Shown: positions 1,600 to 57,400 of the stretch, piece after piece | Layout of the letters: each line of letters starts with the position of its first letter | How positions within the stretch are numbered: position 1 is the first letter of the stretch | Source of the DNA: Fragum whitleyi | Taxonomy: Eukaryota; Mollusca; Bivalvia; Cardiida; Cardiidae | Assembly (NCBI GenBank): GCA_948146395.1 | Contig: OX411552.1 | Location: forward strand, 1,350,001 to 1,414,000 | DNA: 64,000 nt | Reading direction: 5' to 3' | Notes under the pieces: generated by a model | What the model was told of the DNA's origin: nothing | Seen by the model: only the letters and a program-made list of their open reading frames with translations | The model's database searches: none | Translations under genes and position numbers: made by a program

Positions 1600-2563
1600 A
1601 TTCATTATTTTGTACAAAATGTATCGTCAACAAATTAACAGCTCTTTAACATGGAGAAATTATTGACATGTACAGTAAACTCCAGCCTTTTGACATCATT
1701 TAGGGAATGGGAGAAATCACTTATTTATTTCTGAACATCATCACAGAATGACTGCCTTTGTCTTATACCTTATGCCTTATACTTTGAATAGACGATATCA
1801 TTTTCTGAGAGTAGTGATTTCACCCTTTCCAACAATGTTTTAGAAAGATCCAAGGATATTTCTCAGTTTCATGAAAATTGGGATTAAGTAGCATTTATTT
1901 GTAGACAATGACCAGTCTAATAAATCCTAACAATGGGGCTTTCTACATATAAAGTAAACTCCACTTATAACAATCTCTCTCGATATTCAAAATTATCTTC
2001 TACCAGCCATTAGAGATATCCTTACACATGTGCTAGATCACATTCCAAATGGCATTATTTAACACGTGTTTTGGCAGTATTTCTATCATCAGAGCATTTT
2101 TAAAATTGGTATTTCACATAAAAAATTGTTGTTAATGTGAGAAAAAGAATTTCTAACTTAATTTGATAATCGCTTAATAACATTTCAATTCTAGACTCAG
2201 GTTAAGATCAGCTTGTCTAAAACAAAATCTCATGACAGATCTTATATATCTCCCACACCTCTTTAAATCTCCCCATGCTGTTCCCAGTATATTTCTGTCA
2301 GTTGTAGCAGGGACTCTCAATGTAAATTTAGGGTCTGTGGTAGTAGAGTCCATCAAATAATTCAACCACCCTCCACAATAGCCATCTAGAAGTGGGCTGT
2401 AGTCCTGTCTTAGTATTTCTGTCAGTTGTAGAGTCCATCAAATAATTCAATCCCCCTCCACAATGGCCATCTAGAAGTGGGCTGTAGCCCTGTCTATTTC
2501 CAACAGTATTTCTGTCAGTTGTAGAGTCCATCAAATAATTCAACCACCCTCCACAAAAGCCAT
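1594..2563 (-). other. CPSF1: probable CPSF1 3' UTR
   Basis: Non-coding sequence after the stop codon. It begins with the repeated stop-codon units and is otherwise AT-rich and unique-looking. The far end is set by the best polyadenylation candidate and is an inference. Confidence 0.45.
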
Positions 2564-2594
2564 CTAGAAGTGGGCTGTAGTCCTGTCTATTTCC
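2330..2594 (-). repeat. 3-copy tandem repeat of the CPSF1 stop-codon region
   Basis: Three units spaced 85 and 93 bp (marker gccatctagaag at 2382, 2466 and 2559). Each contains the GACAGGACTACAGCCCACTT coding end, the TAG and about 55 nt of 3' UTR ending in CTACAACTGACAGAAATACT. Only the uppermost unit is joined to the real exon. Confidence 0.9.
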
Positions 2595-2611
2595 ATCAAG
2601 TCATCAACCAG
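2564..2611 (-). CDS. CPSF1: CPSF1 exon 36, final coding segment, residues 1421-1435
   Basis: Encodes [15 protein letters not shown] then TAG (2566-2564), matching ILDDLLETDRVTAHF. Acceptor CTTTTACAG. The stop codon and start of the 3' UTR are themselves tandemly copied just downstream. Confidence 0.97.
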   Translation of the reverse strand: MVDDLMEIDRTTAHF

Positions 2612-5600
2612 CTGTAAAAGAGTGTGGCATTTACACTAGAAATATTCAACTCATACAGACTGATGGCCAATAGGAAGATTACCATTACTCTGACTGTGAT
2701 AATTATAAAAATATGATTCTTTATCTATTGATTCTTTTATGACAGCCTATTCATTTGACAGACAAATAGACCTAAACACATAACTGTAAACAAGACACTT
2801 TCAGGGAAAGCTATTGCACCAATATCAGTTTTATTTGTTTGTTTTGATTGACCTTCAAATATGACCTTGACTAATGATCTTGACAATAAATTATGCATAC
2901 CAATTAGGTTTCACCCCATGCAAAATATGAAATTTTATATTTAATACTATATAAAGTTATGGTGGTGTCTATGGTCTAGAGGTAGAGCGTCGGGAGTGGC
3001 TATAAATCTTGGTTCTTTCATTCAGCCACACACTCAGCGCGAGTACTGGTGAATTTTCCAGGGAGCAGATTCAAATAGGTTTAATATAAATTGTTATAAC
3101 TTCTTGACCAATCAATGCTGGATATAAAGGTTTAAACAAAAATATAAAGTTATAAAAAATAATCTTTAGCTTACAGGTTAAGTTCCGAGGATTGCGGTAT
3201 CAATTTTTGTTTTTGACCCTTATCATTTACCTCTTGTAAGATAGCTGCATCACAAATATACTACTCAAAGTTTGCTAAGCACCAAACTTTTTGCCGTCCT
3301 TAGTTTTTCACATAAAAATTGACAAACAGCTGGTACTTTCAGTGCTTTTTGCCCTTTGATTTTGATGAAAATTTTTAGCCAAAATTTATTTAGCATGACA
3401 AGGGTTAATTAATTCCTTTTGGGATGATCAATATGTGAAACATATACCAGTTGTTCTGACCTGATCGGTTGAGGTACCAATCCTCTTGGCTATTTCTATT
3501 TTCTCTAACACACTCAGATGTAAAAACTTCCATAGTAATTCTCCATCTAGAATGTTCTTATGAGAATTGGTGAGATCAAGGGCAGGGTTCTTCACTGCTC
3601 TGTAAATAATCAAATATATCATCATTGTTATTCTAAAACCTCGTAACTACAGCTTTCATCAAGCTGCAGTAACGAGGTTTTAGAATTACATCGACGATAT
3701 ATTCAGTAAACAATTATGGAAACAAGTTTGAAAATTGTCACAAGATACCTGTCACACAGCTTGATCTCAAAGTATAAAAATCAACAAAGGAAAATAACTC
3801 AATAACAAGTGTTTGTAAATTATTTATGCCCCCCATAAAAGCAGGTCAGGTCAATTGCCTATTCTTTGTTAATCACCAAAGTCATAACTCACAAAATATG
3901 ATGTAGAATTATGGTTCTTGTGCACTGAAAAGCACTTCTCCTCAATGAGATCTATCCACCTGTGAAGTTTCATGATTCTAGCTTGCATACTTTTTGAGTT
4001 ATGCACCTGACGAAAAAGGTCTAAGGAATGACCGACTGACTGACTGACAAGTGCAAAGCAATATACCCCCTCTACTTCGAAGGGGGGCATAATTAAGCTA
4101 GGTAGAGTAACTATTCTTGTGCAGTGCACTATGTAATCATAAAAGGAATATAACTGCCTAGTTTCACGTCAATCGGACATAAAGTGACAGCGCAATGCTT
4201 AGAATAAAGAAGTTGAAGCTGCACACCCACTAGTTGCCCAGTGCAAAGGTGATCACACCACATCCCATCTATCAAAAAGCACTGCAAATTGATACAAAAG
4301 CACTATATATTTTGTTACAAACACTTGGCTACAAGTGCTGGAAAATGCAAAAAATCTCAGTCGAACCATGACAAGGAAACTGTACTCAGATTTTTTTCCC
4401 AATAGGTCTATAGCTGTTTTAACATTCATTAAAAAAAAGAATCTTTCTCATTACTAGCTATGCTGAAAAGGCTCTTTATACCTTGTTCCATTGTCTTGTA
4501 CACTTATAATAAATCTTATCCTACTCTTTTTAGAGAAAACCCAGCTGTATTCTTGTGTTGTTGTTGTTCTGGTTGTTTTCATTGTGTAACCTTTATTTTA
4601 CCAATTTTTATTTTTGTTTTTAATTGTCAATTTTTGGGATATTTCAATCAGTCTGGCTTAAATTTATTATCCAATAATTCACTAGAAAGCAGACAATGCA
4701 GGCAAGGGTCATACGGCATACCTGTGTAACCTGATGCTTGTCTATAATGTCTACCAAAGATTTAAGTATTGCAAGTATAAATTAGAAACAACTAGGGAAT
4801 AACAAGTCAACACATTTTGAAGCATGAATCTAGGTTAAAAGTTACCAGTAAGATTTAGGGTTGAGCCCTGCTGCATGGGGTATATGTGTAGTTAAGGTGT
4901 TTTGTAACATGAATAACCTGAGGTAAGAGTTTCCTGTAAGATTTAGGGTTGAGACCAGCAGCATGTGGTATATGTGTAGTTAAGGCATTTTGTAACATGA
5001 ATAACCTGAGGTAAGAGTTTCCTGTAAGATTTAGGGTTGAGACCAGCAGCATGGGGTATATGTGTAGTTAAGGCGTTTTGTAACATGAATAACTTGAGGT
5101 AAGAGTTACCTGTAAGATTTAGGGTTGAGACCAGCAGCATGTGGTATATGTGTAGTTAAGGCGTTTTGTAACATGAATAACCTGAGGTAAGAGTTTCCTG
5201 TAAGATTTAGGGTTGAGACCAGCAGCATGTGGTATATGTGTAGTTAAGGCGTTTTGTAACATGAATAACCTGAGGTAAGAGTTACCTGTAAAATTTAGGG
5301 TTGAGACCAGCAGCATGTGGTATATGTGTAGTTAAGGTGTTTTGTAACATGAATAACCTGAAGTAAGAGTTACCTGTAAGATTTAGGGTTGAGACCAGCA
5401 GCATGTGGTATATGTGTAGTTAAGGCGTTTTGTAACATGAATAACCTGAGGTAAGAGTTACCTGTAAGATTTAGGGTTGAGACCAGCAGCATGTGGTATA
5501 TGTGTAGTTGAGGCGTTTAACAACATGAATAACCTGAAGTAAGAGTTTCCTGTAAAATTTAGGGTTGAGCCCTGCTGCATGGGGTATATGTGTAGTTGAG

Positions 5601-8600
5601 GCGTTTTGTAACATGAATAACCTGAGGTAAGAGTTACCTGTAAGATTTAGGGTTGAGACCTGCAGCATGTGGTATATGTGTAGTTAAGGTGTTTTGTAAC
5701 ATGAATAACCTGAAGTAAGAGTTACCTGTAAAATTTAGGGTTGAGACCAGCAGCATGTGGTATATGTGTAGTTGAGGTGTTTTGTAACATGAATAACCTG
5801 AGGTAAGAGTTACCTGTAAGATTTAGGGTTGAGACCTGCAGCATGTGGTATATGTTAAGTTAAGGCGTTTAATAACATGAATAACCTGAGGTAAGAGTTA
5901 CCTGTAAGATTTAGGGTTCAGCCCCGCAGCATGTGATATATGTGTAGTTAAGACTTTTTGTAACATGAATGACCTGAGGTAAGAGTTACCTGTAAGATTT
6001 AGGGTTGAGACCAGCAGCATGGGGTATATGTGTAGTTAAGACGTTTTGTAACATGAATAACCTGAAGTAAGAGTTACCTGTAAGATTTAGGGTTGAGACC
6101 AGCAGCATGTGGTATATGTGTAGTTGAGGCGTTTTGTAACATGAATAACCTGAGGTAAGAGTTACCTGTAAAATTTAGGGTTGAGCCCTGCTGCATGGGG
6201 TATATGTGTAGTTGAGGCGTTTTGTAACATGAATAACCTGAAGTAAGAGTTACCTGTAAGATTTAGGGTTGAGACCAGCAGCATGTGGTATATGTGTAGT
6301 TAAGGCGTTTTGTAACATGAATAACCTGAGGTAAGAGTTACCTGTAAGATTTAGGGTTGAGACCAGCAGCATGTGGTATATGTGTAGTTGAGGCGTTTTG
6401 TAACATGAATAACCTGAGGTAAGAGTTACCTGTAAGATTTAGGGTTGAGACCAGCAGCATGTGGTATATGTGTAGTTAAGGTGTTTTGTAACATGAATAA
6501 CCTGAGGTAAGAGTTACCTGTAAGATTTAGGGTTGAGACCAGTAGCATGTGGTATATGTGTAGTTGAGGCGTTTAATAACATGAATAACCTGAAGTAAGA
6601 GTTTCCTGTAAAATTTAGGGTTGAGCCCTGCTGCATGGGGTATATGTGTAGTTGAGGCGTTTTGTAACATGAATAACCTGAGGTAAGAGTTACCTGTAAG
6701 ATTTAGGGTTGAGACCTGCAGCATGTGGTATATGTGTAGTTAAGGTGTTTTGTAACATGAATAACCTGAAGTAAGAGTTACCTGTAAAATTTAGGGTTGA
6801 GACCAGCAGCATGTGGTATATGTGTAGTTGAGGCGTTTTGTAACATGAATAACCTGAGGTAAGAGTTACCTGTAAGATTTAGGGTTGAGACCTGCAGCAT
6901 GTGGTATATGTGTAGTTGAGGCGTTTTGTAACATGAATAACCTGAAGTAAGAGTTTCCTGTAAGATTTAGGGTTGAGACCAGCAGCATGTGGTATATGTG
7001 TAGTTGAGGCGTTTTGTAACATGAATAACCTGAAGTAACAGTTACCTGTAAGATTTAGGGTTGAGACAAGCAGCATGTGATATATGTGTAGTTGAGGCGT
7101 TTTGTAACATGAATAACCTGAAGTAAGAGTTACCTGTAAAATTTAGGGTTGAGACCAGCAGCATGTGGTATATGTGTAGTTAAGGCGTTTTGTAACATGA
7201 ATAACCTGAAGTAAGAGTTACCTGTAAAATTTAGGGTTGAGACCAGCAGCATGTGGTATATGTGTAGTTAAGGTGTTTTGTAACATGAATAACCTGAAGT
7301 AAGAGTTACCTGTAAGATTTAGGGTTGAGACCTGCAGCATGTGGTATATGTGTAGTTAAGGCGTTTTGTAACATGAATAATCTACGGAACAGCTTCTCTG
7401 TGATGGGGAGTAAGAATCCTAGACTGCCATCCAAGCTTGCTGAAATTTGATAAACAGTGAGGTAAAATGTAAATGAAAAGAAATCTGTATGAAGTTGTGC
7501 ACCAGTTATTTTAGGCTTCCAGTCATTTCTTACACTAGTACAACTGTAACATTTATATGAACCACACGCTATTTCCTAAATAAATAAATAAATAATCAAT
7601 CACCAATTTTTCAGAGACAAAGGATGTTTTCCAATGAGATCACACAGGAATCCCTGGACCAGGAAAAGAGCAAGAAAAGGCAAAGATTGGTGGTATATTC
7701 TAGTACTGTTGCAAGCCAAGGTTTCTAATTTCAAGGTGTTCCTTACAAACATAAGGAACAAAGTGGAGTTAGAACCATAGCTTGAAAAAAATCTTATTAA
7801 AAGTACACCTAAATTTCATGGATAAAGAAGTATTCTTATGAAAAAGTGTAATGGTGATAGTATGTCAGGACTCCAAGGTTTCCAAACTATTTGGAGGGAT
7901 CCCATTGGTTCAAAGCAAGGGATTACATAAGAATACTTGATCCCTTGCTTTAAACTAATGGTGTCCCTCCCAAGATTTGTGGATCTTCCAGATCCTGGGA
8001 CACTGTTAGTGTCAAACCCAGCAATGACTTTCGTGGAATATCTAATGAATGAGCATGTATTCAAACTGAGACACTAGGAATGACAGCCCACTATATGAAT
8101 CAGACATCAGGGCCCAAGGTTATAAAACTTTCTTCAGGCTCCATTCAAACTTTTCTCGGGGTCTGATATCTGGACTCCGTGTAACAAATATTTAAAGGCA
8201 AGAAAATTGTTTTACCAATAAATTGTATATTGAAAGATTTTCCTAACTTTTAGCAACATATTCATGAATATATAATGAACATACCAAAGTATGTGACTTG
8301 TTTCCTCTCTATTGGTCCAGCCAATTTCTTATCAGTAGAAGGATCCGTGAGTTTACATCTGATTCTAAACATTGTATTGATGTTGGATCCCACATTGATA
8401 TCTCCTCGTCTAACTAATCTGGTCCCACCATGGCTTTCTCTGGCTGAAATATTAAATGACAGATAAGATACTACATGTAGTAACAATTCCTACAAGAAAA
8501 CATGATTACAGATAATTCAAGTTAAAATGATTGTATACAAATCATTAATCTAATTGATGGGATAAACAATGTAGTTGGAAGAGCATCAAAAGGCCCATGA

Positions 8601-11600
8601 GGACAATAATATAATTAAAGTTGTGTCTTTGCAATCTGATTGGCCTAGAACTTAGTATCATAACTCATTAAAACTAATTTTGAGTACACAGCTATTTTGT
8701 AAGTTTTCAAGAAATTTTATCCCGTAAACAATCTATTTTATTATGGTAAATCTTTATCATATTGCTTTGTGATATTAAATCATTCGATAAGAAAAAAGTA
8801 TTTCTTGCCTTCATAGAGGTATGAAACTAAAATCATTTTCACAATAAGGTATAAATCAGCTTCAAGTTTTCATACAATGTGATTAGGTTTTTACTTTCAC
8901 ACCTCCATGAAAGCAATAAATACTCTCTTCATCAGTAGTATAAAATGATTACTTACTCTCTGGTAGATACATATAGATGAGCATGTTTTTGTGTCTGTCT
9001 GTCACTGAAATAGAGATTTAAATCCTTATGTGAATTGTCAAATTGTAGGGAGCTATCTTATATACACCAATAACAATAGCAAACACTAAAATATGCATTG
9101 AAATTAAATCCTTGCAGTAAGCTAAATGTTTATTTATCCCCTAAATGAACTACTCATGCAATACAATCAGATTTTAAATCAAGCTTCATTCAAGTTGTAA
9201 ACAATAACCTTGTAATACAAGAAATATCCACATACCAACAAATGACAAGGCTGATCCATCCACCATATAGTCTATAGAGAATACTTCCATGTTCTTAACA
9301 TCCTACAAGTAGATTTAACATGTTTTTATCTACAAACTCCAAAAGTATTAAATCTGATACTTTCTCCCTCAAAACTACATCATAGGGAAAGATGTTTAAA
9401 GAAATGAGCAATTTTAAACTTTGTCGTATGTATGAAGGATTTTGAAATTGCTCCTTACAATATCTCCTTTCAGTTATAACTGAAAAATGAAAAATATCTA
9501 AACAAAACAAACTTCTAACTCAAGTTATACCGGCTCTGATGATTGGTTATGTAAATTATGAAAAGAGCTTCAGAATTCCTCTGACTTTGGATGTATCTTA
9601 TACCTCATAAACTAGTAATAGACAATGTACCAAAACCTTTCAACAATTTTTCAGGTTATGGTAATCAGTGTATTAAGTGACCACTTACATGACTGCTTAA
9701 AGTAGTCATTAAAGAGAATTGCCACATAGAACACATTTTGATTACTAATTTGAAACATAATTTTGATTGAGTATGTATTGTTTTTGAGATTTTCTCAATC
9801 ATCCTATGTTGTTTAAACTCAAAAGGACAGTCTCATTGAGAGGATTCCAATGAATTTGCATAACATAGGATGCATTTACATTATTTTTTTAACCAATTAT
9901 AATCACTTTCTAAGATATTTTGATTTAAAGAAGGGATTTTGGAAAATGGTCACTTGATAAAAGTGGACACTTAATAGACATGGTCACTTGAACAAGATGG
10001 ACTGTATCACCTACCCTAGCCACCTGTGAAAGAACCCTCTGATCCTCCTGGTATCTGTATAAAGTCACACTTTTCAAGATGTCTGCCGCAAAGATGAGAT
10101 TTTTGATGGAGGTCAGTGAATGAATGTAGATATGTGTGTCTATAAATGCTATACCAACTAGATCATTGTCCTTCAGGGTCCACATGAAGATCTGTAAACA
10201 AACAACAGCAATGTCTGATATGCATATGTATCAATGAGTGAAGATATGCAATGGCTTTTAGCGACTTAAAGTAATTACTAAGTCCAAAAATTATTCAAAG
10301 GGAATTGAATAAACACTTTTAAATAATATTAGATATTTTGGCTAATGCCTTGTTCAAATGAAACTACATGAGAATATCACAACTACATCTTTACATTCTT
10401 ACTGTGCAGCCATATTGAATGTTTGTATTAGTAAACCTTGTCACTAAGTCCAAAAATTATCCCACAGGGAATCAAAGTATTAATTAAAGTAATCAGACTA
10501 TACTCCATTTAACAAAGCATTTCCATGGCTCAGCCTGATGCAGTTTAAACTGCTTATATGTTTATGGCAGTCACAACTGTTTTGCGCTGAGTCATCAATT
10601 TTACAGCCACACTCTTATTAAAGATGGGCCGACACTATGTGCTTTCAATATATCACTATTTAATCAAAATATTTGTTTTTACCCCCCCTTTTTTTTTATA
10701 TATCAAAATACTATAAGAATCAAGACTTTCAAAAGATTGCAGAACTTCACAGTTATTAATGTACATATTTTTTAACATGTCTTTTGGAAGAACACAAAAC
10801 TGACCTACCTTTTGACCAATGGCTGAGACTAGAAAACCATTACAATGTGCTAGAGCTGTTACTGGACCTTTCTGTTCTTTATCATACACCACCTACACAA
10901 ATAGTAATATGGAATATTAGAGATATATATTTTTTCTTATGAATTTCTTTCTTTGTTAAATGTTAAATAGATAGATTAAAAGTAGACCTTTATGTTTGCC
11001 CAGTAATAGCTAAGTCTCAAATTATTTTCAGAGATTAACTCTGGTATTGATGATGAAGAAACTGACAAATTATCTATATCTAATCATATTGTTACTTTAG
11101 AATTGTTTAATGATATTAAATATTAAACATCACTAGGTGACCAGAATGTTGTAACTAAAGCTTAAATGATATGAAAGATATAGTAATGCTGCATTATATT
11201 CCTCGATGATTTATACATGACTTGTCACGTGAAAATGCACCACTGGGGAAGTGAGTAAAGTGTTGATCCTTGACAGCCTGCGGGGATTGTGCAGATTGAC
11301 AAGGTCCGAAACCTTTCGCACTTTACAAATTTTCTGCATCTAGAATGATAATTCTGCCTTCCCATGAAAGAAGTTTTGAAATGCTACCTTAGGTTGATCC
11401 ATACTAGAATAAATTTTTTTTCACAGTTTTATTCTACAAAGTTCCCAGATGGCCCCTTTTGGTGTGTTAGGTCACATATTATGACTTTTAAAGTGAACAA
11501 TCAATGGCAAACCTTTATCTTATTTTTGGTCAGTGGTAATCCAGGCTCCGGTACAACCTCAATGATATCAAATATGATGATCTGAAATAAATGCACATTC

Positions 11601-14600
11601 AATCACTTTAAAATTGGTTTCATCACCAATTAACAAGTTTTCAAGAATACTAATATCCTCTGTTGGTTTTCACAATAGTTACAAAAACAACCATAGCAAA
11701 GTGTGATACATATACATGTATATTAGTCAATGCATAGTAGGTTACATTTGATAGAAATTTGCAAATTTCTTGTAACCTGAATACATGGCTATATCAATAC
11801 ATTTTGTACTAAAGGTAGTGGAACCATAATAGGTCAAGAACATTTGAATTCATGATCTTTAACAGTGTTAACCGAGGTTTCCAAATGTAAATCATTAGGA
11901 AACCTGGGTTAACACTGTTAAAGTTCATTACTTCTGAAACATGGCAGAACTATTACAGGTTTACCACAAAAAACAAATGATCATTCAAAGATCTTGTAAA
12001 TTGAAAAGTTTCATAATCAAATATTTTTAGAATGTTTGTCAAAAATGTCCTCTCACCCTTCCTCTAGACAGTACCTCCTCCCCTAGACTGTAATTGGTTC
12101 CTATGGCAACATAACCTTTGACCCCTGACACTGTCTCCTCAGACTTCAAGGACACATATTTTAGTGAGGTCACATGTTCATAATCATCCATTTCAATCCT
12201 GGAAAGTAGATAAGAATTAAACCATTCTACATAATCTATATTCTTTATAATTCTTGAGAAAAGATAGTTTTTAAAGCATTATTTATTCCACATCTATTTT
12301 TCTCTTTACAATTTGCATAAGTCTGAAATTAGTAATGTACAAAACTTTATGCTTGACAAAAAATTGATATGACAGGAAATAAAAAATCTAATACCTGAAG
12401 ACAAGTTAACACCTGCAAATCAGTGCATTCGACTTTAGTTTCAGCAAAAGGTTGTTATGGGAGACCACTCTCACCACTGACCTGCATAGCTTGGTATGTT
12501 TAGACAATCTTCTTTGGCTCAGTGGTTAGCCCATTAGACTTGTTAACCAAATATTTGAATATTGTTGTCAGTGTGGATTCTAAATGGCTCACGTCGAATA
12601 TTTTTCAGCTATGCTTCAGTTGAGGACAGTTCGTACATAACAAGGTTAAGAATCAACCTCTAAGAGATTTTTTTTATCAATAATAGAACAGAAAATATCA
12701 AGGACATCACTGTAAAATAGAAATTGTTAACTTTTTTCATTTTGACCATAAAATTTTGAGTTATTATTTAAACTATACTTCATAACAGTCAATATTACTC
12801 GAGCAACCACGTCTATTATGTGACCAATTCTATTAAGCAACCACCATAAAAAGCCCATTCACCGTAAGCCAAATGTGTGAAAAAGAGGACACTCTTAACG
12901 AAAAATTGGTAAACATTGAATCTTATGTTGATAAGATGATTCTAATGGGTTCGAACATCATAGGATTCAGTACCACTTGACCGACAATCTATAAATGCTA
13001 TCAAAATCAGCTGTGACATTTATCATAGTATTTCGTATTAAGCGATCATTCCCATAAACGACTGCTTTTGTTGGTCTCTTAAGTGGTCACTTAATACAAG
13101 TTTTACTGTACTTACTGAGTGTTTGGGACAACTTCCCATGATGTAGGACTGTATAGCTGACATGAAAACTTTGGGGTGGTGGGGTACACAAATCGTTCAT
13201 CTGTAAACAAAGTATAATATGCATTGCATTCAAGCTACATAATGCTATGAAAACATTTTGAAATGATACCCCACAATGCATGTACACACTTACAAAACTG
13301 GGTATCATTTCTAAAATCTTTAATCTTCGGCTGATATTCAACATGAACACGGGGCAGGTAAAGGCTCATGACAAACAGATCAGTTATAGATATTATTCAC
13401 TACTGGAATTACAAAATCAATATCAGTTGTTCATAAATGAGCTTATTGAATCTTGTCTTTCCATTCCTTCTTTATTCCAGATTCAGGGAGGCTATATATC
13501 AAAAGCTCTGCAATTAAGATACATGACAAATCTTGGTCTATAAAACCTAATTATATCTCATTTTAGGCTGCAAAAATTAAATTTCATTAACATTTGTTGG
13601 GTTTTAACTAAATTTACTGACCTCTTTCAATGGTTTCAAATTCTCTTTCCCCTGTTTCTGTGGTGGACTTTGGTAATTTGTTGCTGATTTCTGGATTATG
13701 GACAACTACAGCATATGTCTGTCAATAAAAACAATTCCATGGTACCAAATTTGAGCTTGATTATTGACCTTGACATTTGACCTTTACAAATGTGCAATGA
13801 TGAGAGGGACAATCAAACCAAATATGAGCATATGAACTAAGTGTTTGAGGTAGTGGACATGTAATAGTTCCGCAACATTTCGGAACTCATGAACTTTCAC
13901 AATGTTGACTGAGGTTTCCTAATGAAAATCATTAGGAAACCTTGGTTAACACTGTTCAAGCTCATTACGTCTGAAAAGTTGTGGAACTATTATATGTCCC
14001 CTACCTTAAGTTCGAGGAAAAAGTTTATTTTGCACGCCAAGCTTTCTCAGACAGACTCACCTACAGACAGTTGGACAACAGTAAAGCAACATGCTTTCTA
14101 TCCATGTCTATTGATGGCACAAAACATTACATTGATCAGTGAAGCATTTATCATGCATTTTGACTGTAAAGATATTACTACTTCTCTGCTTGGAAATCCC
14201 GTATTGCATCTCAAATAGTGATGTTAAGAAAACTTACCTTAGAGAAGACAATAAATATTGATTATTCTTTTTAGAAATTCAAAAGTTACAAACTCGATTT
14301 TAATCATTTTTATGGCCTTGATTGCAGATATAAACACATCCTAAATAATGTTTTATGAAAATAATCTGACATTCATGTATTTCCATTGAACTTTTGGATC
14401 TGCTAATAGTTGTTCATAATATAATTGACATGAAAACAAATTTTTAAACAAACCTTGCTGTCTGAATGATAGATGACAAAATGTGGTGAACATCGTAACG
14501 GAACTTTTCTGATTGGCCAGGGAGCATCGTAGGTGAGATGAGTCGGTAATACTGATATTCGTAACTCTCCCTAAAATATGAGTCAGTTTTTGTTAATCTT

Positions 14601-17600
14601 TGTCATAGCGAATATCAAAACCTTGGCAAAAATTGAATTTAAATCAAAGTGCTCAAAGCACTGGACGTACTAACTTGAAATCAGTATTTATTTTTAAAAT
14701 ACAATCTTGAGACTTTTTTGCCTTGAAAAGTAAAATCAATTGGTATAAACAAAGATCAGACTGCACATATGTGCAGGCTGATCTTTGTCTATACCTCATG
14801 CGAAGGCAGGAATATTTGGGTTTCAGCAAGATAAGGGTTAAAACTTAAAATATTCTTCTTTACCAAAATGCAATAGTACTGACATAAATATGAATGCCTT
14901 CAGAAACAAAGTCGGTTTTCGTCTAAACCCTATAACTACAGCTTCTAAAAAGCTGTAGTTATAGGGTTTTGGAAGAAAATCTCTGAAATGAGTTTGTGAA
15001 ACATGAATATCAAACTTTACCCTATTTGTTGAATGATAATATGGCTTTTAATATCACTTGTAACAATATTTCAGAATTATTTCATCATTTCTAAAAAACA
15101 AAAGTCTGACATAAGTATAGGAAGTTGGTTGTTGAATATTGCCAGTCAAAATGAACAATTTCAATTAGCTTTTTGATCAACATAAATTAATCGTCATTTA
15201 CACTTTATCAAGTATAGATACATCTAAACCCATTTAATTTCATACAGTACTGTTACAGTTTTTAGAAGGTTTAACTTACCTGTCTGTTAAAGTATAGGAA
15301 CCCTTTGGGACAATTAACATTATGAAATTCAGCAAAACATGTGATAGAACCGTCTATACCCATTGGATGGATTCTCAAAGATCCCCTGTGGGTCATAAAT
15401 AACCAGTGTGGATAGGGTCCACAAATAAACACCTGAAATTACATGTGAGAGAACATTCCAGAACACTTTATCTTTCACAATGTTAGCCAAGGTTTCCTAG
15501 TTGTCTCTTTATTGTGTTATTCTTGGTTTGAGGTCATTTAATGGGTAGTATAGCTCTTTGAAAAGCTTGTTTCTTTGTATAATTTTTAGATTGTAACAAT
15601 GTTTTTTACGCAAGTATTTTAATATTGTTACGTAATTTGTCTTTTAAAGTATGATTGCATTATCATATTGATTGTTATATTGTACTACTTGATTATTCTA
15701 TGATCTGTTATGATATTTTTTTGGTTGGCGGATAGACCAACTGTTATATGCATGTTAACTTGAGACAAAATTGACCAAGGGGTCACCAAAATTGGCACAT
15801 ACATTCACCTACAGGTTTAGATTATCCTTGGTTCAGCAGTTCGCATGTTGGTCTTGTAAACCTATTATTTCAATATTACTTTTCTGATTGGGTAGTATCT
15901 TTTCAGCTATGCTTCAGTTGCCAACTATTGGTTCATATGTCTTACCCCACCATAACCCAAATATCATGAAAATATCTGAAGTGACACGCTCGTTCATCTT
16001 CAAACAAATTAAGGACAAAGCCTTCTTTAACGCTTTTGGGTGGATTATCCAGAACTAATGATAGATTATCTCTTGATAACCTTACTGCCAAAGTAAAGAG
16101 TTCACCAAAAGTTATAAATGTTTGGTTTTTTGTTTGTAGGATCAATAAATCTTTCAATTAGCAAACAACAAAGCTATATTTTCACACATGGCTTTGCCAT
16201 CTGTGAAAATATAGCTTTTGGTTGTTCACTCAATGAAAGAATAATCCATTTTACACTGACTCAAACAATTATCCTCCACTTACCCCACTATAACCCGAGA
16301 TATCATGGAAGTATCTAAAGTGACACGCTCGTTCATCTTTAAATTCTTCAGGCTCCTCCAAAATGTCAACATCAGGTCTTTTTCTTGGCTTGATCTTACG
16401 TTCTTTGAGAATTAGATTGTGTTGAACCTTCTTAAACCTTATCTTAATTCTGTCATCAGTCTTAGATTGTTGGTACGGAAATGCTTCGTAGATTAATAAA
16501 CCGTCCTCAACCCTGGCCTGAAAATATCAAAAAAGATTCAGGGGTCCAGATAAGAGCGGGTAAAGCCAGTCTAAAATCTTTATTGCCCAGATAAACCCTA
16601 TGTAGTAGGTACTCATTTGAATTGTCAACATAGGGTTTCAGTTACATATAATAAATTATTTGGTAACCAAAGTATCCCCTCTATCTGTGTCTCTGGGCTT
16701 GATAAGAAATGATGTCACCTTACTAAGTTATCTTCATTACAGACTTAAACCTTTGAACAAGCCAACCTTCAAAGAACAAATTTTACCTTTTCAAAGAATT
16801 TTTGACAAATAATTATTAATTTTTGGAAACATCACAAAAAGAAATTCGAAACATGCATTGCATTTCCTTTCTAAGGTCCAACACTCCATTTTCAGTCATC
16901 AATATGATACAAGGACATTTTTCATATTGAAAATTTTTGTATGGAGAATTGACATTAACATCAAGAGTTAAAGTCCCTACCATTAGGAATGGTCTTGAGT
17001 TTTTCTGCCCTAAACCAACCAACATTAGTTCATAGACACTTGTATTTGTGGGTTCACTAGCTGTTAACTTCTCCTGAGATGTGCTGGACCTGAAAGTACA
17101 GTACAGACGCCATTGCTCAAGAGACCACTTCTTTTATATGTCCCTTCAAAACAAAATCTCTGAAAAAGAAGACATTCTTATAAAATTGTTTATTAATGAA
17201 TCTTTTGCTTCTGGAACCCATTAGAGTTGTCTCAATGAGACAAATCCATTGTGTTTGAATATCAAAGGATTCAGTAAGAATTATGCAACAATCTATATAA
17301 TGCTATCAAAATTATCTGTCTTATTTATCATGAAATATGGTACGAGGCAACCATTCCCAAAAGCAGCGGCTTTTTGGTAGTCCCCTAAGTGGCCGCATAA
17401 CAGGAGTTTGACTGAATATGGTATAAATATATTGACTATAGTTCTTAACACAATCACACATATTCCATTATAATTTACTTGCATCCTTGAAATAAGACCT
17501 CAGTCTCATTGAAATTTTCAACATAGTGCCAGATTAAGCCAAAAGAATAAATTTATCAAATATGAGTACCCCATTGAATTTAAATTCAAGCTGAAAGCTG

Positions 17601-20600
17601 AAACATTCTTACTCTCCACTGCTTTTCCAAAACTTCAGACTTGACCAAATTCAAATTAAGGTACTTGTAATCACCTTGGAAAGTAATGGCATACAAATAT
17701 TCTGCAGTTTGTTACTGGAGATTGAATAAATGCTGGAAATCAAATTTCTTTGGCCTTCATATTGAGATAGTATCATAACCCTGGCTGTTTATATCAAAGT
17801 ATAAAACATGTACTTACAATGATTTATCCAATAGTTGCTGACTGTCAACCAAGACTTTCTGTCCAATAGGGAATGACTTCACATAATAACAAACTCGAAA
17901 ATCTGGTAAACTACAGATCTGCAATCAAATGCACATGATATTAACATCATACTAGTGATTCTACAGTCAAGAATTCACCGGACTTTGCAAATTATCACAT
18001 CAGTGCTTAAACATTGTATATGCCTAAACAGTGTATCAACACTTGCTATCTTTAAGAACTGGGGCCTGAATATTATATTAAAGACGATTCTTTTTAATTG
18101 AGTAAACTTTAATATATCAATATGCTTCCTTTTTAAAAGATCTTATCATATATATAGAGGATATTGAATGAGTGGTCATTGAATACTGAATTTATCAAAC
18201 GAGTCATCTAAAAACAGATAAAAACGAGGTTGCGCCGAGTTTTTATCTGTTTTAGATGACAAGTTTAATAAATTCTGTATTTTATGAGCACAAATTTTAT
18301 ATTCTGTTTATACTATGACCCGAAATTTAGCAAAAAATCGTCAAAATTCCTGAAATTCAACATTTCAATTTTCCACGAAACTTATAACGCCGTTCAGTGC
18401 TCTCAATAAGGGCCAAAATCAGGAATTTTTGTAATTCCATGTTGGGATTTCAGGAATTTTTTACTAAGTAAGGAATTTTTAACCCCTCCCCCTGCTATCC
18501 CCACCCGCACACACACCCTCCTTTTCTGTACACTTCGTAAATGCTTGTTTCCTTGTTAAATGTAAGTTTTTTTGCTCCCAAAGTCAATGATTCTGGTTGG
18601 TTCTCTAAGAATAAAGGACTTCCAAGCCTTAAAACTTGTAGCCTTGACTTTAAGCTGTAGGGACGAGCTTTGGTTTCACAATCCCCTTTTATTAATTTCA
18701 TTGAATAAACTATGGAAACTAATATGAGAAAATGTGGAGTTTCTATTTGAAATCTGTCCTTAGCTGTATCTTGCGCGGTGGGCCTAGGAAATGCGGCTTA
18801 CTCAAATTTTAGTAACGATGTTTTGGTATCCGGCGATATTACAGAAATTAATGCAGCTTTAATTTTCCTCGGCCTGTCGTTCCAAAGGTGGCGAACTTTC
18901 TAGGTAGTGTGCCAATAAAACTTAAAGTTCCAAGCCTATTTAAACTTACGCAGAATTATCCAAATAGCAGAAGTCAAGAAAAAATCGTCATTTCAAATCG
19001 CTCGTCAGACATGTTGCAAACAACTTAAATGACGTCATTGGGATTTCCCCACGTTCTCCGAAGATGCCGATTCTACACATATTTAAACGAGGACACTCGA
19101 ATGACCTTTCGTAAATGTTTTCCGGTAGCGTCTTTTTCACTTCGGATAAATTACCCGTAGATCTATTTTAAGAGTTTTAGGAAGTGATATTTCGAAATTT
19201 TATTGGTCTGAGCTGCATAAACTACGTTTGATATAACGAATTTTCCCCTGATTTAAATTTCGTTTGTTTTGATAATCCGACAAAGGACCCTCGCGATCTG
19301 TATCCGACTAAGAAAGATAATGACAGAAGCGGTAAAGACGCGTCGCTAACCCGATAACTGATTGCGTTTACAATCAAAGACTGGTTGTTATAGCGACAGT
19401 TTAATACACCACGCGTTACACATGGCTTGTTATGGTCAGCTATAATGTGTATGCTCGCGTTGATTATCGATTTTTTGCACGTGTAGACTTACGTTTAATC
19501 CTTTATTAGGTAAATTCGTAAAACGTCCGGGGTTAAATTACAGGACGTTTTCCTCGAATCTCGGACGTTTTTTTTACGTCCAGGTTTGATTTTCCGGACG
19601 TAATTTCTGAAATTCTGGACGTATATTACGTCGACGTCCGCTTATTGAGAGCACTGGCCATTTAAATATGACGTCACAAAACATAGATTATGACGTCGTT
19701 TTCGCGGTTACAAAATAGCATTGCTATTCGCCCTGAGCTCATTTGCATAGTTATTTCACTAGTGTAATAACACCCGTGTAATATCAAAAATATTCAACGG
19801 CGTTATTTCACTTCGGCAATGTAGGTCATATTATAAATATAATCTATAATATATCACTAGATTGATTTCTATACAATTCATAAAACATAACAATTTACTG
19901 ACAAAAAATACCCCTTCTTTTAACATCATAATTTGATGTAAGTAAATTTCTACACATTGACTACCACTCAAATTGATAGCTCAGTTCAAAACACTTGTAA
20001 CTTCCAATAAAGGTAGTACTAATTGTTTTGCACTGCTAAATCAAAAAGTGCCAAAAAGTCGTACCTCTAAACTCCCATTATCTCTACTAATAGCTGCCCA
20101 GTATGTGGACCTTACTTCTTTCTTTGACTTTTTCCTGAAATGTCAGAATAAGGAAGAGAATTTTTTATCACTTGAGGAAAGTTCTGCAGAATTCCTCGAA
20201 TATGAACTATGACAATGCAGAAGAGAATTTTAATGATTTCACAAGAAAAATATTGTTGGACTATATTGGAGAAACCTACCCTGCCTTTAGGATGACAAAA
20301 CAATGTAAACTGTTTGCAAATTATTCCTCACTTTGCACACAAGTGCATGTGCAAAGTGGGGTATGATTTGCAAACAGTTTGCACTGTTTTGTCACCTTGA
20401 AAGCAGGGAAGATGTACTGTTATTGTGTCTGTAATGTTGTGAAGGGGACACTTATGCCATGTTTGGTTGAAATCTGCCAACTGGTAACTTAGGAAAAGAT
20501 AATCAAAGATTTCAGGTTTTAAATTTCCTTGTCCTACCACACTCATATTTTGGGGGCAGGTAGGGGATGGATGTTACAAAAGATCACCTTGAGCATTTTG

Positions 20601-23600
20601 TGCTTAAGGTAGTGGACCCATATTAGTTCTGCAACATTTCAGACCAAATATTGTTTCACAATGTTAACTGAGGTTTCCTAATGAAAATCATTAGGAAACC
20701 TTGGTTAACATTGTTTAAGTTCATTACTTCGGAAACATTGCAGAACTATTACTGTTCCACTACCTAAAAAGGCAACGAATACTATCAAGAGGGTAACTCT
20801 AAATATATTTTTTGTATAACTGATTCCCCCTTAAAGTACTAGAATCCAAGGGTGTAGGGCATCTTTCTTTTTTAACATTAATTTCAATGAACAACTCTGC
20901 CTTGAAAAGGGCTGAACAGGCCGAAAAGACTATGATGTGCAGGCTGATCTTTGTCTTTACCTGTTCTGCTACAGCATAAATATTTTGGGTTCAGCATGAC
21001 AAGGGTTAAATTTTATCCACAATCTAGTGCTCAAACAGCCACGCCTTGGGACCTACATGTGGCCCTTCTAGTTATTATCTCCTTTATTAGCTTAAAAATT
21101 TTGTTAGCTAATTAAGTTGCATATTTTGACTTGCATTCTCTTTCAAATCTTGATGTTTCCATTAATAAAAGTTCCTATGTCAATGTATAATCATATATAT
21201 ATAATACATACTTTGTGTATCATATGAAAAAAATATCTAACAAGGTTGTTAGGGAGAATTGAATATTTGGAGAATTGAATATTGTTGAGGCTCTGCCGAG
21301 ACAATTATCAATTCTCACAACTGAGGTTGATATTTTTTCATTCAATACACTAAATATTTATTATATTTATCTTATAACCTATATTTGTCTTGCTTTTGTC
21401 AGTGTTTCTTACTGAAATGCAAGTTTCTAAAAATAACCGCATTATATCATTGTTCTGAAAATAACTATGTGATATCATGAAAAATATCATACCGGATGTT
21501 ATCACACAGATATTTGTGTAGTTATAAGATAAATCTTTATATCTATATCTATCTTTTAGTCTCTAGATATTCTTACTTTGACTTGGCCTCTCCTTGTACA
21601 CTAGTAGTTGATGTATCAAACATTGATGTATCTGTGTCACCGTAGAGAAGTTCATCTTCATCGTCAACCGTACTACAAATATACAGAAATATAAACCCTT
21701 ATCATACTGAACCTGGAATATTCCTGCTTTGGCAGGAGCTATAGACAAATATCAGCCTGCACATATGTGCAGTCTGATGTTAGTCTACACCACCTATTTC
21801 TCACTGTCAAACCAGAATTGTCAATTGATTTAGCTTTTCAAATAAAAATTGACTTACAGTTGGTACTTTCGGTGCTTTTTGCCTTTTTATTTTGATGGGG
21901 TTTTTTTGTCAAAATTTATTTAGAATGACAAGGGTTAATTTATGCTCATTTTTATTGTCTTTTTGATATTGCTATTTCTTTTCTATGTAAGTTTTCACAC
22001 ATACTAATAGCTTAAAAGAGTGATTGTCATTTCAGTACTTCCCTACTTCATGAGAAAATCAAGGCAAATTTTTTTTTTTCTTCATAAATCTCTTTCCTTT
22101 TCTATTGAGAACAACAATCTTTTCTCTAGTTCAACTTTAATTCTAATAGGTCATATTCAATCAAGTAAGAGTGCATTAGATAGACAATTATAACATGCTT
22201 TTTTTCTTTGATGCACAGCTAATGAAAAGATACCACTAACTGGTTTGCTAATTTTGAAAGTTCAACTACCTTAATACCTGATACAGATACAGAATACTAA
22301 CCCAATAGTTTTGTGACTACCAAGAACACTGTCTTAATGACAGAATTCAAATGAAGTTCCAAAAACATACCATTCAATGAGATACAATAGACAGTTATCA
22401 TCTTTCCAAATAAAATTTTCAGTTTCATATATTACCTGTGTTCCATACTAAACACCTTATCTAGTGATGTTTTGGAAGTGTTCAGCTGTTCTACATTATT
22501 GACATCATCTTCCAATTCAACAGCTGCAGTTGTAAACATTCCACTCGTGTCCTTGTAGGCACACATATACGTCACTCGGGGCTTCTGAAGAAAATATTTG
22601 CAATGGTTGATATAATTATAGTATGTGAATAATTCAATGAATCTATCAAAGTTGCAGAAATAATCAAATAATCAATCCTCTACACTATTGAAAACATTAT
22701 TAGAAGTTTTGACAACAATTCCAATTCAATGAAAATAAGAACTATATGATAATCGGACTAACAATTGGTTCAATTAAATTTGTGTTTTTGAAATTTAAAC
22801 AAGAGGACCAAGATGGTCCTAGATCGCTCACCTGAGTCTCTTTGACCCTTGGGACAACACATTAATTAGATAGGCAGATGTCATAAAGAAGATAATTGCC
22901 TAAGATCAATACCATGGAACATTTTCAGCAAAGAGCAAGACAGATATGCCTTTTTGCTCTTTGATTCTATGTAAAAAGGGATGCACCCGAGTGGACCCCA
23001 AATGTGACCCCAGCGTCTTGATATGAACAAACTTGAAAGAGGTCCATAAGATGATGATACATACTAAATATGAAAGCTGTCAGCCTTCTGGTTTCAAAAA
23101 AGAAGATTTTTGACAGTTTTTCTATTTTCACCCATTATGCTCAGATAAGCTGAGACCGATGTGCCCGGGCGGAGCCCAAATATGACCCAAGGGTCTTGAT
23201 ATGAACAAACTTGGTAGGGGCCCACTAGATGATGCTACATACCAAAAATGAAAGCACTGTGCCCTCTGGTTTCGATTTAAGAAGATTTTAAAAGATTTTC
23301 GCTCTTCCATTATATGTTAAAAGGGTTGCGCCCTGGTGGAGCCCAAATATGATCCTAGGGTCTTGATATGAACAAACTTGGTAGAGGTCCACTAGATGTA
23401 GATGATGCTACATACTAAATATGAAAGCTGTCTGCCTTCTGGTTTCATAGAAGAAGATTTTTGAAGATTTTCATTTTTTTACCCTTCGTGCTCTAAAGAG
23501 ATAAAGGGATGCACCCGTGCAAAGCCCAAATATGACACAAGGGTCTTGATATGAACAAACTTGGTAGAGGCCACCTAGGTGATGCTACACACCAAGTATT

Positions 23601-26600
23601 AAAGATGTCTGCCATCTGGATTCAGAGAAGAAGATTTTTAAAGATTTTCACTCTTTGATTCAATGTAAAAAGGGTTAAGCCCGGGCAAAGCCAAAATATG
23701 ACCCCAGGGTCTTGATATGAACAAACTTGGTAGAGGTCCACTAGATGATGCTACATACCAAATATGAAAGCTGTCTGCCATCTGGTTTCATAGAAGAAGA
23801 TTTTTGAAGATTTTCATTTTTTTACCCTTCATGCTCATAAGAGATAAAGGGATGCACCTGTGCAAAGCCTAAATATGACCCAAGGGTTTTGATATGAACA
23901 AACTTGGTAGAGGCCCACTAGGTGATGCCACACACCAAATATAAAAGCTGTCTACCATCTGGTTACAGAGAAGAAGAATTTTAAAGATTTTCATTCTTTG
24001 ATTCTATGTAAAAAGGGTTGGGCCCAGGCAAAGCCCAAATATGACCCCAGAGTTTGATATGAACAAACTTGGTAGCGGTCCACTAGATGATGCTACATAC
24101 CAAATATGAAAGCTGTCTGCCTTCTGGTTTCAGAGAAGAAGATTTTTAAAGTTTTTCATATTTTCACCCATTTTATTAAGGGTTAAGGGAAAGTTAAGGG
24201 TGGATTTCATTTATTTGAACAACTTTGGTAGAGCTTGACCCAAGTAACAACCCTGCCAAGCTTCATCAAGATTGGCCCACTGGTTTAGGAGGAGAAGATG
24301 TTTAAAGAAATTGTGGACGACGCACATCGCACGACGGACGACAGACATTCTACGATCCCAATAGCTCACCTTGAGCACTTCGTGCTCAGGTGAGCTAATG
24401 ATGCCAAAAATGCACATTTTCTCAAGTTTTATCACTGTAGATGATGTATGCTCAGTTTCAAAAATGACATTTATTAACATAATCACTTTATCATCAAAAT
24501 TCTTCAGATATTAGAGTATGTAAAGTTTATTTGACGAGTTTGGCAGACAACTGGACAGGTCAAAAAGATTGACAGTAAGAAAGACAAAAGTAAAACAATG
24601 AATATGCCTGAAATCCTTGGATATTAGCCCAAATAAATAATTAAGTTTTAATAACAATTTCTCAAGTTCCATCAAAGCTGTCTCTCTTCTCTCTCAAACA
24701 AATCTATATCAGTAAAAGATTGCCTTCAGATACCATCTAAGATTTACTTGAACTCTACCCTTCTCATGCTGTTTTAAGATATATGTTTCTTCAGTACATT
24801 TAGCTTTGATAGACAGTATAAAATATGATCAGCCTGCACAGGAGTGCAATATGATATTAGCAAATACTTTGTGTGGGTAAAAATTAAGACAGGCTAGTAA
24901 TTTGTGAGAAAAAAGGGCAATTTGCATGAAACAAAATGTAAAATTTAGCAGGTTAAGACAAGAGGACCAAGATGGTCCTAGATTGCTCACCTGAGTCTCT
25001 TTGACACCTGAGATATCACGTCAATTAAAAAGGGAAATGTCATAAAGGAGGTAATTTCTACACAAAACCAAGATTCATGAAGATAGGGCCAAAATTTTGG
25101 CCTCTAGAGTTACAACAAGAAAATTATTGTTAAGACCCCTTTTCCTGTGATATGACATAGATCTTTCCCTTTTCCAATAGGGTTCATCCTTGTGACCTGG
25201 CCAACGTTCTGACCAAGTTTCATGAAGATTGGGCCCTATTTGTGGCCTCTAGAGTGTAAACAAGAAAATAGTCATTAAGGCCCCTTTTCCTGTGATATGG
25301 CATGGATCCTTCCCATTTTCGTTAGGGATAATCTTTGTGACATGGCCAACATTCTGACCAAGTTTCATGAAGATTGGGCCCTATTTGTGGCCTCTAGAGT
25401 GTAAACAAGAAAATAGTCATTAAGGCCCCTTTTCCTGTGATATTACTTGGATCCTTCCCATTTTCGTTAGGGATAATCATTGTGACCTGGCCAACATTCT
25501 GACCAAGATTCATGAAGATTGGACCATATTTGTGGCCTCTAGAGTGTAAACAAGAAAATTGTCATTCAGGCCCCTTTTCCTGTGATATTACTTGGATCCT
25601 TCCCATTTTCAATAGGGTTAATCTTTGTGACTTGGCCATCTTTCTGGCCACGTTTCATAGAGATTGGGCCATATTTATCATCATTGTGACCTGACCAACA
25701 TTTTGACCGAGTTTCATGAAGATTGGATCATATTTGTGGCCTCTAGAGTGTAAACACTTAACTTGTTGACGCCAGATGACGAACGACGGACAACAGATGA
25801 CAGACATTCAATGATCACAAAAGTTCACCTTGACCAAGATGTGCTCAGGTGAGCTTTTTAAAACACTAAGACATTCCCCTCTATTGAATGTTGCGCTACT
25901 TACATTAGATAGAAGTGGTTTACTGAGAACTAATCTAGCTGTAGACCCTGATCCTTCCTGTCTTAATACTAACATCATAATAACACCTTCATCACTCATG
26001 ATGAGAATATACGGATCCGCTACAGAACAGTGAACAATGGGTGTACCCATCTCTATAGGGATGTTTTGAATCTGTTCAACTGGAATATACAAAAATACAG
26101 AATATATGGATCAGATGCAGAAAAGTGAACAATCCCTCTCTATACGGATGTTTTGAATCTGTTCAACAGGAATAAAGAAATATAACATTGAAAAAAATGC
26201 AATAAAATAAAAGTGTTGAAATTAAAGTGTGGACCCAAATATGGGTCAATATTTGTTTTAAAAATTTAATTTTCAATTTTTTCTAATTTACAAATGAAAA
26301 TCAGGTGGCAAAGATTAAGATCAGACTGCACATATGTGCAGGCTGATCTTTGTCTAAATCTCCTATCAAAGCAGGAATATTCCAGGTTCAGCATGACAAG
26401 GGTTTAAAGAATTTAATAAATTTTGTTCTACATTGGCATAATGAGTGAATATCACTCTTTCACTAATATAAGACTCTTACATCCTTCAGCTGCAAAATTT
26501 ATCAAACTTACAAATAACAACAAACATTTCCACATCTATAAGTATCAGTTGGATCTACTGAATTGAAACAAAAGGAAGGAAAGATTTTTTTCTTCTTAGA

Positions 26601-55954: not shown

Positions 55955-57400
55955 ACAGTAAAATGAGCTTAGGTATTACAAAGCGTAGCTTTAATGCCCT
56001 TTAATCTTAGCTTTAAATTGAGAAAATGACTCAATAGCTTTGATATCGACTGGTAAGCGATCCCAAAGGCTGCATTCCATGTAAGAAAACGACTTTCTCC
56101 CATGGGACCCAGCCTTCGGTACCGCAAAACAACCACTGCTGTTAAATATGCTATCATAGCTGTTTAAGGATGCCGGGACTGCAAAGTGTTGTTTCATTTA
56201 GTCAGGCGCTAAACCGTTTTTAATTTTGAACATATGTAAAAGCGCAATCTCTTCTACTCTTTTGAAAACGGGCAACCATCTTAGAATTTTGAAATGTATA
56301 TCTGAAATTTGGGATCTACGAGTTAACTCTAGAACAAACCTTATCGTTTTATTTTGCATGGTTTGGAGCTTATCAGTCACATTCTTGTTTAAACCAAAAA
56401 TACCAAAATGCACGAACGTAATGAAATTGACATTGAATTAAGACTGAAACAAGCACTTTTCTAGTGTGGAATGATTGCTTTTATGATACAAGAATTTCAG
56501 ACTTGTGTTTGCTTTGTTGAGTAATGAACTAGCCATTAATTCACCGGATAAGTTTTGGTCTAGAGTAGCTCCAAGATATTTGACAGATGAAGTTGAATTA
56601 ATAATATTACCATTACATATAACATTAATATTTGTATTAGATTTAATATTTTGCTTAGTAACAAAAAGAATACATTCAGTTTTACTAAGATATAAAGACA
56701 GCTTATTGTCAATAAGCCATGGTCTTACAAGGTTAAGGTCCCCAGACAATGCCTTTTCCAGTCACAGTAGACCAAGTACCGAACCCCGGGGAACACCACA
56801 TGTAATACTAGTAAGTGAATGAACTTTATTTACGCCAACAAGATATTTTCTGTCGTTGAGATATGAAGAAAACAAATTAATAATGTCATTACAGTATTGA
56901 GTGAACAACAGTATCGAATGCTTTTTGTTAATCAAGTAGGACCATACCTACATAGTTACCTTTATCCATTTGAAATCTAATGTGGTCAGACAGATGGATG
57001 AGACAGGTATCTGTGGAAAAGCCTCTTGGGAATCCAGATTGAAGATTATAGAATATGTCTTTTTCTTTCAGATAATTTTCCACTTGGTCAAAAACAACCC
57101 GTTATTTTTTAGATAACACTCAATATAGTTACTGGTCGATAATTACCAACGTTAGTCTTATCACTTTTCTTATATAAGGGAACGACTTATAGCTGATTTT
57201 AAATCAGGCGTGACAATTACTTGGATCAAAGAAAAATTCACAATATGAGTCAAAGGGTACGCAATAATCGAAGAGCAGTCTTTTACAAAACGTGCTAGAG
57301 AACCATCTAAACCAGCAGACTTGTTTGCATCTAATTTATTTAAAAAAAACTATATTGTGTACACTGACTAAATACAAAGAAAAAGTAGTTCTACATATAC
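55955..57400 (-). pseudogene. broken LINE (non-LTR retrotransposon) reverse transcriptase
   Basis: Minus-strand fragments in order of a non-LTR reverse transcriptase: LDANKSAGLDGSLARFVKD (about 57330-57270), GNYVGMVLLD and QKAFDTVVHSIL around 56960-56900 with an internal stop, CGVPRGSVLGLL (about 56800), WLIDNKLSLYLSKTECILF and SSVKYLGATLDQ (56740-56570), then LQTMQNKTIRFVL and LRWLPVFKRVEEIALLHMF (56370-56230) and ECSLWDRLPVDIK (about 56060). The part between GSVLGLL and the thumb, where the YADD catalytic motif should be, is missing, and several frameshifts and stops occur. Probably Jockey/CR1-like. Non-functional. Confidence 0.88.

Follow-up and report, generated by a model that had tools for sequence, protein, structure and literature searches.

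We analysed a 64,000-nucleotide stretch of the genome of the bivalve Fragum whitleyi (contig OX411552.1, positions 1,350,001 to 1,414,000; hereafter the window), in which the end of exon 34 of CPSF1 and the start of the adjoining intron form an array of 29 tandem units (4829..7380, minus strand). We are fairly confident that this array is a minisatellite of the type called 'mirage' in amphioxus, that it arose as part of the frequent local tandem duplication seen in CPSF1, and that it is most likely ignored by the cell. It is the largest exon-founded product of a duplication process that affects exons and introns alike. That process is not targeted to exons, and the array is not demonstrably functional.

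The identity of the host gene is supported by homology along its length. The 145 amino acids around the array match human CPSF1 (PDB 6bly_A; phmmer against PDB, E 2.6e-39), and the same stretch matches the Pfam family CPSF_A (6.2e-23). Using a human CPSF1 sequence as the tblastn probe, followed by spliced alignment and correction of exon ends by hand, we obtained a homology model of the coding part of the gene, which comprises 36 exons at 2564..47520 on the minus strand. The model holds 4308 nt and 1435 amino acids, its sole stop codon is terminal, and GT and AG bound all 35 introns, the shortest of which measures 231 nt. Exon 34 (7310..7439, minus strand, 130 nt) ends in phase 2 at the donor CAG/GTAACT, and the next true exon, exon 35 (3461..3599, minus strand), begins behind the acceptor TTTACAG/AGCAG. 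A preliminary description of this locus had assigned the exon its number and its end at 7310, had divided the repeat unit into 71 exonic and 17 intronic nucleotides, and had predicted a junction joining 7310 to 3599; homology and phase bear out each of these. Among the 120 proteins listed of 835 matches in a 5.8-billion-protein set, the best named relatives were those of Mercenaria mercenaria (78% identity), Mya arenaria (76%) and Dreissena polymorpha (75%), with two more entries at 77%, and a search with a short C-terminal protein gave 11 matches, the best from Ruditapes (76%). No near-identical protein was found among those 11 matches or the 120 listed of 835.

Within this model, the array begins inside exon 34 and runs on into intron 34. 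Tandem Repeats Finder (TRF) reported a period of 88, 28.9 copies, 94% matches and 0% indels (score 4439) at 4836-7380, and cutting the minus strand every 88 bases from 7380 gave 29 units of exactly 88 bp without an indel, the last of which ends at 4829; the limits first given for the array, 4829 and 7380, are thus exact to the base. Unit 1 consists of the last 71 nt of exon 34 (7380-7310), which encode 23 residues and then (R), and the first 17 nt of intron 34. Units 2-29 follow it head to tail without gaps and are all intronic. Where the array had been described as 29 near-copies beside the true exon edge, the 29 units stand, but one of them is the true edge and the extra copies number 28. 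The distal unit 29 (4829..4916, minus strand; donor CTG/GTAACT, intron part GTAACTTTTAACCTAGA) is the most diverged, with 9-15 differences from units 2-28 and 11 from unit 1, compared with a mean of 4.9 among units 2-28. Past it, in register, lies what is likely a 30th copy of the exon edge, partial and decayed (4805..4829, minus strand; ATTCATGCTTCAAAATGTGTTGACT): its alignment score in register was equalled by 2 of 5276 intronic control segments, and a rotated-profile nhmmer match begins within unit 29 and reaches 4805. This putative copy may be an older one from which the array grew. Intron 34 also holds three AATAAA motifs (4668, 4612 and 4597), each downstream of the array, and a short inverted repeat close to exon 35 (3631-3685), spotted by eye, which is perhaps a small inverted-repeat element.

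The units vary in the manner of a cluster whose members exchange sequence. Pairs of the 28 intronic units differ at a mean of 5.4 of 88 positions. The exon unit carries two departures from the consensus, one synonymous and the other intronic, lies within the variation of the array and is a single difference away from each of units 13 and 23; the proximal edge of the array, at exon 34, is not diverged. Variants are distributed as a mosaic, with all four combinations present in 28 of the 66 pairs of informative columns (units 1-28), and the similarity of units does not drop with distance along the array. Together with the diverged distal unit, this mosaic variation fits concerted evolution inside the cluster with the distal edge left out. 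Units 7-13 come back as units 19-25 with 0-3 differences each, which points to a probable block duplication within the array.

The preliminary description spoke of near-copies of a constrained coding sequence; we found no support for the copies themselves being held to that sequence. Changes among the copies comprise 8 synonymous and 13 others (P 0.07-0.23, depending on the weight given to transitions), and in the two alternative frames the synonymous counts are 6 of 21 and 4 of 20. Amino-acid variants recur across the array: 12 of the 29 units carry L>S, 8 carry S>F and 7 carry A>T. Because their variation fits neutrality, we read the copies as intronic.

Much of the geometry of splicing persists in these copies. 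GT is kept in 22 of the 28 and replaced by GA in the other 6, and 27 of 28 are free of stop codons in the exon frame. The 17-nt intron piece, mostly GTAACTCTTACYTCAGG, ends in AG plus one base, and a unit can be read as 72 nt between an AG and a GT, running from phase 2 to phase 2 and adding 24 amino acids. AG, GT and an open frame coincide in 21 of 28 copies, and in 20 once the copy is joined to exon 35, a junction at which unit 29 produces TGA. Lengthening exon 34 itself to the second, third or fourth donor yields SYR and a stop, because the first donor, GTAACT, yields TAA when it is read through. Spacing further limits how units could be combined: neighbours are separated by 16 nt and units two or more apart by at least 104 nt (by arithmetic), a gap that may still permit partial use, and adjacent units could hardly both be used, since 16 nt is far under the 231 nt of the shortest model intron.

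In units that have C at position 83, the intron piece contains the reverse complement of the donor, which gives a perfect 6-bp hairpin; the unit of the true exon has T at this position. The 27-nt piece with C is predicted to fold as AGGTAA-CTC-TTACCT (-4.0 kcal/mol) and the T variant to adopt another fold (-2.4 kcal/mol), and the structures predicted for 13 copies include a perfect 6-bp hairpin across the donor. We rejected hairpin masking of decoy donors as an explanation: in predicted openness, the donor of exon 34 holds a middle rank among the 35 of the gene, and a perfect hairpin occurs at 26 of 2514 GT sites.

Local duplication in CPSF1 extends well beyond exon 34. We compared exons with 40-nt flanks against the window, and 150-nt tiles of the window all against all, with matches within 3.5 kb at E of at most 1e-6 counted as local copies and an exon counted as copied when they covered at least 25 of its bases. 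Ten of the 36 exons have local direct copies (exons 6, 9, 10, 13, 14, 15, 16, 22, 34 and 36), and the tile comparison of the window found no local inverted copy over any exon base. Common direct copies and no inverted ones are what tandem duplication predicts. Such direct copies account for 15.1% of the bases in exons, 26.4% of those in introns and 10.5% of those outside the gene, figures that use exon coordinates from before five exon ends were refined; the denser coverage of introns rules out a preference of the process for exons. The earlier idea of a minisatellite seeded at an exon-intron boundary survives in that the array is founded on a boundary of CPSF1, but with 10 of 36 exons copied and introns covered more densely, the exon edge finds no support as a special seed.

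The copies, all on the minus strand, vary in divergence and in cargo. Those upstream of exons 6 and 9 carry an acceptor without a donor: the first comprises the 5' part of exon 6 and ends before its donor (39465..39562; 88%), and the second comprises the entire exon 9 and lacks a GT donor (36272..36373; 96%). Those downstream of exons 10, 14 and 22 carry a donor. Exon 10 has two such copies with a period of 125 (35272..35445; TRF and exon comparison), the first of which retains the donor AAT/GTAAGA; the 3' end of exon 14 recurs 2.9 kb downstream (28359..28429; 71 nt, 83%) with its donor changed from GTAAGT to GTCAGC; and the 3' end of exon 22 recurs at 15941..16004 (59 exonic nt aligned, one gap) with the donor GGG/GTAAGA. 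One change in the first exon 10 copy creates an AG behind a pyrimidine-rich stretch, out of frame, and splicing exon 10 into it would, as read by eye, lead to a stop. Further copies comprise the 5' end of exon 16, upstream, with TG in place of the acceptor AG (26099..26184); an inner piece of exon 15, downstream (26623..26666; 44 nt, 95%); a weak copy of the exon 13 end with intron (31988..32037; 25 exonic nt) that lies within an array at 31776-32318; and a 2.8-copy array of period 93 made up of the exon 36 end, the stop codon and the start of the 3' untranslated region (2343..2588; TRF and exon comparison).

When exons 6, 9, 10, 14 and 22 are lengthened to the decoy site, the added bases are not divisible by three and a stop is met. 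The extension test covered these five and exon 34, and in the gene model an intact protein would require the shorter form of all six exons, matching exon definition by the nearest pair of splice sites. CPSF1 thus offers a natural test of splice-site choice, in which six exons would need the shortest acceptor-donor pair despite a nearby copied site (at 2.9 kb for exon 14). We pooled the differences between exons and copies over ten copies from eight exons (one each of 6, 9, 14, 15, 16 and 22, two each of 10 and 36), setting aside the array, its flank and both weak copies of exon 13; 31 of the 56 differences fall at third codon positions. A rough estimate of the share expected between a constrained exon and a freely decaying copy is about 45%, and the pool makes no case for translated copies. 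Among individual copies, the strongest hint of translation comes from the first one of exon 10, with all seven of its differences at third positions.

One relative carries a comparable duplication. An annotated CPSF1-like protein of Mya arenaria (P0019) contains a second copy of the exon 14 end, GHTFLILIRPVSSM, which shares Mya's own upstream QEGEKGE, and the exon 14 copy in the window carries the window's own residues, not Mya's. The same exon end looks to have been duplicated independently in the two bivalves. Of 131 relatives' proteins checked for six motifs, P0019 was the sole one in which a motif recurred, and it may be a mis-annotation that took an intronic copy into the protein; self-BLAST of 120 relatives' proteins at E 1e-3 detected no internal duplicate and did not flag P0019.

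These observations fit an account in which a local tandem duplication would have happened to straddle the boundary of exon 34 and intron 34 and would then have grown to 29 units through unequal exchange or slippage. Exchange between units, in which exon 34 itself may participate, would hold the middle of the array alike while its far edge decays. The shortest splice-site pair, which runs from the exon's own acceptor to the first donor, would define exon 34, and the remaining units would be removed with the intron. Several results weigh against this account. The 29 units contain no indel, although an unconstrained array might be expected to show some. By a position weight matrix (PWM) built on the gene's own 35 sites, the exon 34 donor is weak, the fifth lowest of 35. 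The unit AG after CTTCAG scores 10.3-12.3, and 12.3 equals or exceeds 30 of the 35 real acceptors (after CCTCAG the score is just 2.6-4.6), although the AG background includes the array and these scores indicate no more than that use of the acceptor is conceivable. Over 88 nt, the first copy of exon 10 departs from the exon at seven sites, every one a third codon position, which is not the likeliest outcome of free decay. Finally, the putative 30th copy does not stand out by two local-alignment scorings that ignore register (95 of 6100 and 36 of 6100 segments).

Some of the same features would suit cassette exons, with units sometimes spliced in as 72-nt exons between AG and GT, each adding 24 amino acids in frame. 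The array is free of indels, phase is maintained at both ends, the context of the AG after CTTCAG resembles that of the gene's real acceptors, and most copies combine AG, GT and an open frame, only one having a stop inside. We nevertheless judge this reading unlikely in view of the 16 nt between neighbours, the frequent non-synonymous variants and the relatives' proteins: among 131 of these, none known from this species, LQNAL occurs in 100 and AGLNP in 124, never twice. We give little credence to a related possibility, that the array is an exon nursery in which alternate units, or more widely spaced ones, can be spliced in as in-frame 24-amino-acid exons. Were it true, the CPSF1 isoforms of this clam would form a ladder of C-terminal repeats, and the extent of that ladder would differ from one individual to the next with the length of the array.

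A regulatory role, in which the array is kept as a row of 5' splice sites that bind U1 small nuclear ribonucleoprotein and act on how the CPSF1 transcript is itself polyadenylated or spliced, appears very improbable to us. CPSF1 belongs to the polyadenylation machinery, most copies keep GT and every AATAAA of intron 34 lies downstream of the array; set against this, the donors of 6 of 28 copies are dead and constraint on donors is unsupported, the hairpin predicted over the donor in 13 copies implies that many may bind U1 poorly, and other arrays sit in other introns of the gene. Nor do we put much weight on an assembly artefact, with copies added through misassembly of a heterozygous genome. 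Heterozygosity is common in bivalve genomes, yet the differences among units are mosaic, ten exons have copies of widely different divergence and unit length, and stuttering of one sequence is unlikely given a mean of 5.4 differences in 88 positions between intronic units.

Read as a mirage-type minisatellite, the clam array has close counterparts in amphioxus. Amphioxus mirages are minisatellite-like tandem duplications of exon-intron boundaries in Adh3, the globins BflGb6 and BflGb9, and troponin C, with similar imperfect repeats in PGBD5; their reported units measure 10-72 and 150-160 bp, with AG/GT in many but not all (PMC3087553; PMC3902484). Clusters evolve in concert with their edges exempt, their length is unstable, and the mRNA is reportedly spliced normally (PMC3087553; PMC3902484). 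Mirages have been proposed as a possibly general cephalochordate phenomenon (PMC3087553). The clam array resembles those described in that its tandem unit spans an exon-intron boundary, here of CPSF1 in a gene model open over 36 exons; in that AG/GT signals occur in many but not all units (GT in 22 of 28); and in that the cluster is concerted inside with its distal edge left out. It differs in its bivalve host and in its 29 units, compared with 6 and 3 in two BflGb6 haplotypes (PMC3087553; PMC3902484). The clam unit also keeps the frame as a 72-nt cassette, and many exons of one gene are hit. Length instability and normal splicing are reported for the amphioxus clusters, whereas the clam array is known from one sequence. 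Judged by its sequence, the array is best filed as an unusually large member of this already described kind. The literature searched, open-licence papers only, yielded no report of mirages in a mollusc. This 29-unit bivalve case in a core mRNA 3'-processing gene suggests that mirages can appear in any setting with frequent local tandem duplication. Its in-frame geometry is also of a sort that has been put forward as raw material for new exons and introns.

Other repeat systems share parts of this arrangement. Human IFI6 (6-16/G1P3) has a short repeat unit, and Turri et al. in 1995 reportedly described its minisatellite as having multiple splice donor sites. Two downstream repeat units are said to serve as donors (PMC4526556). 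The clam array likewise offers several donors by repeating an exon end (GT in 22 of 28 copies); in contrast to IFI6, where extra donors are said to be used, extension of exon 34 to any of the next three donors would meet an immediate stop. Human segmental duplications contain internal tandem repeats at exon-intron boundaries that may switch on splice sites and give rise to new introns (PMC2812944). Those repeats vary between paralogues and on average comprise four units of 30 bp, whereas the clam has one long 88-bp array inside an old intron. A potato RNA-dependent RNA polymerase gene is described as having gained an intron via a tandem duplication that crossed an intron-exon boundary and carried the splice signals along (PMC4974935). 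There a single duplication became a new intron; the clam units cross a boundary likewise, without any new intron demonstrated. Surveys by Ivanov and Pervouchine (2022) and with Exonize (2025) record exon copies in adjoining introns, partial and degenerate ones included (PMC9013439; PMC12343006). They centre on exons usable as alternatives, whereas the clam copies are mostly exon edges, in one case at high copy number.

Elsewhere in the window, a Pfam scan of three open reading frames (ORFs) matched no family. An ORF at 56438-56761 on the minus strand, without a Pfam match, is reminiscent by eye of the end of a retrotransposon reverse transcriptase. TRF also identified other intronic minisatellites, with units of ~145-184 bp in up to 13 copies, at 22957-24169, 25067-25676, 28662-29126, 30685-30961, 31776-32318 and 42724-44820; the three with 145-bp units look alike by eye.

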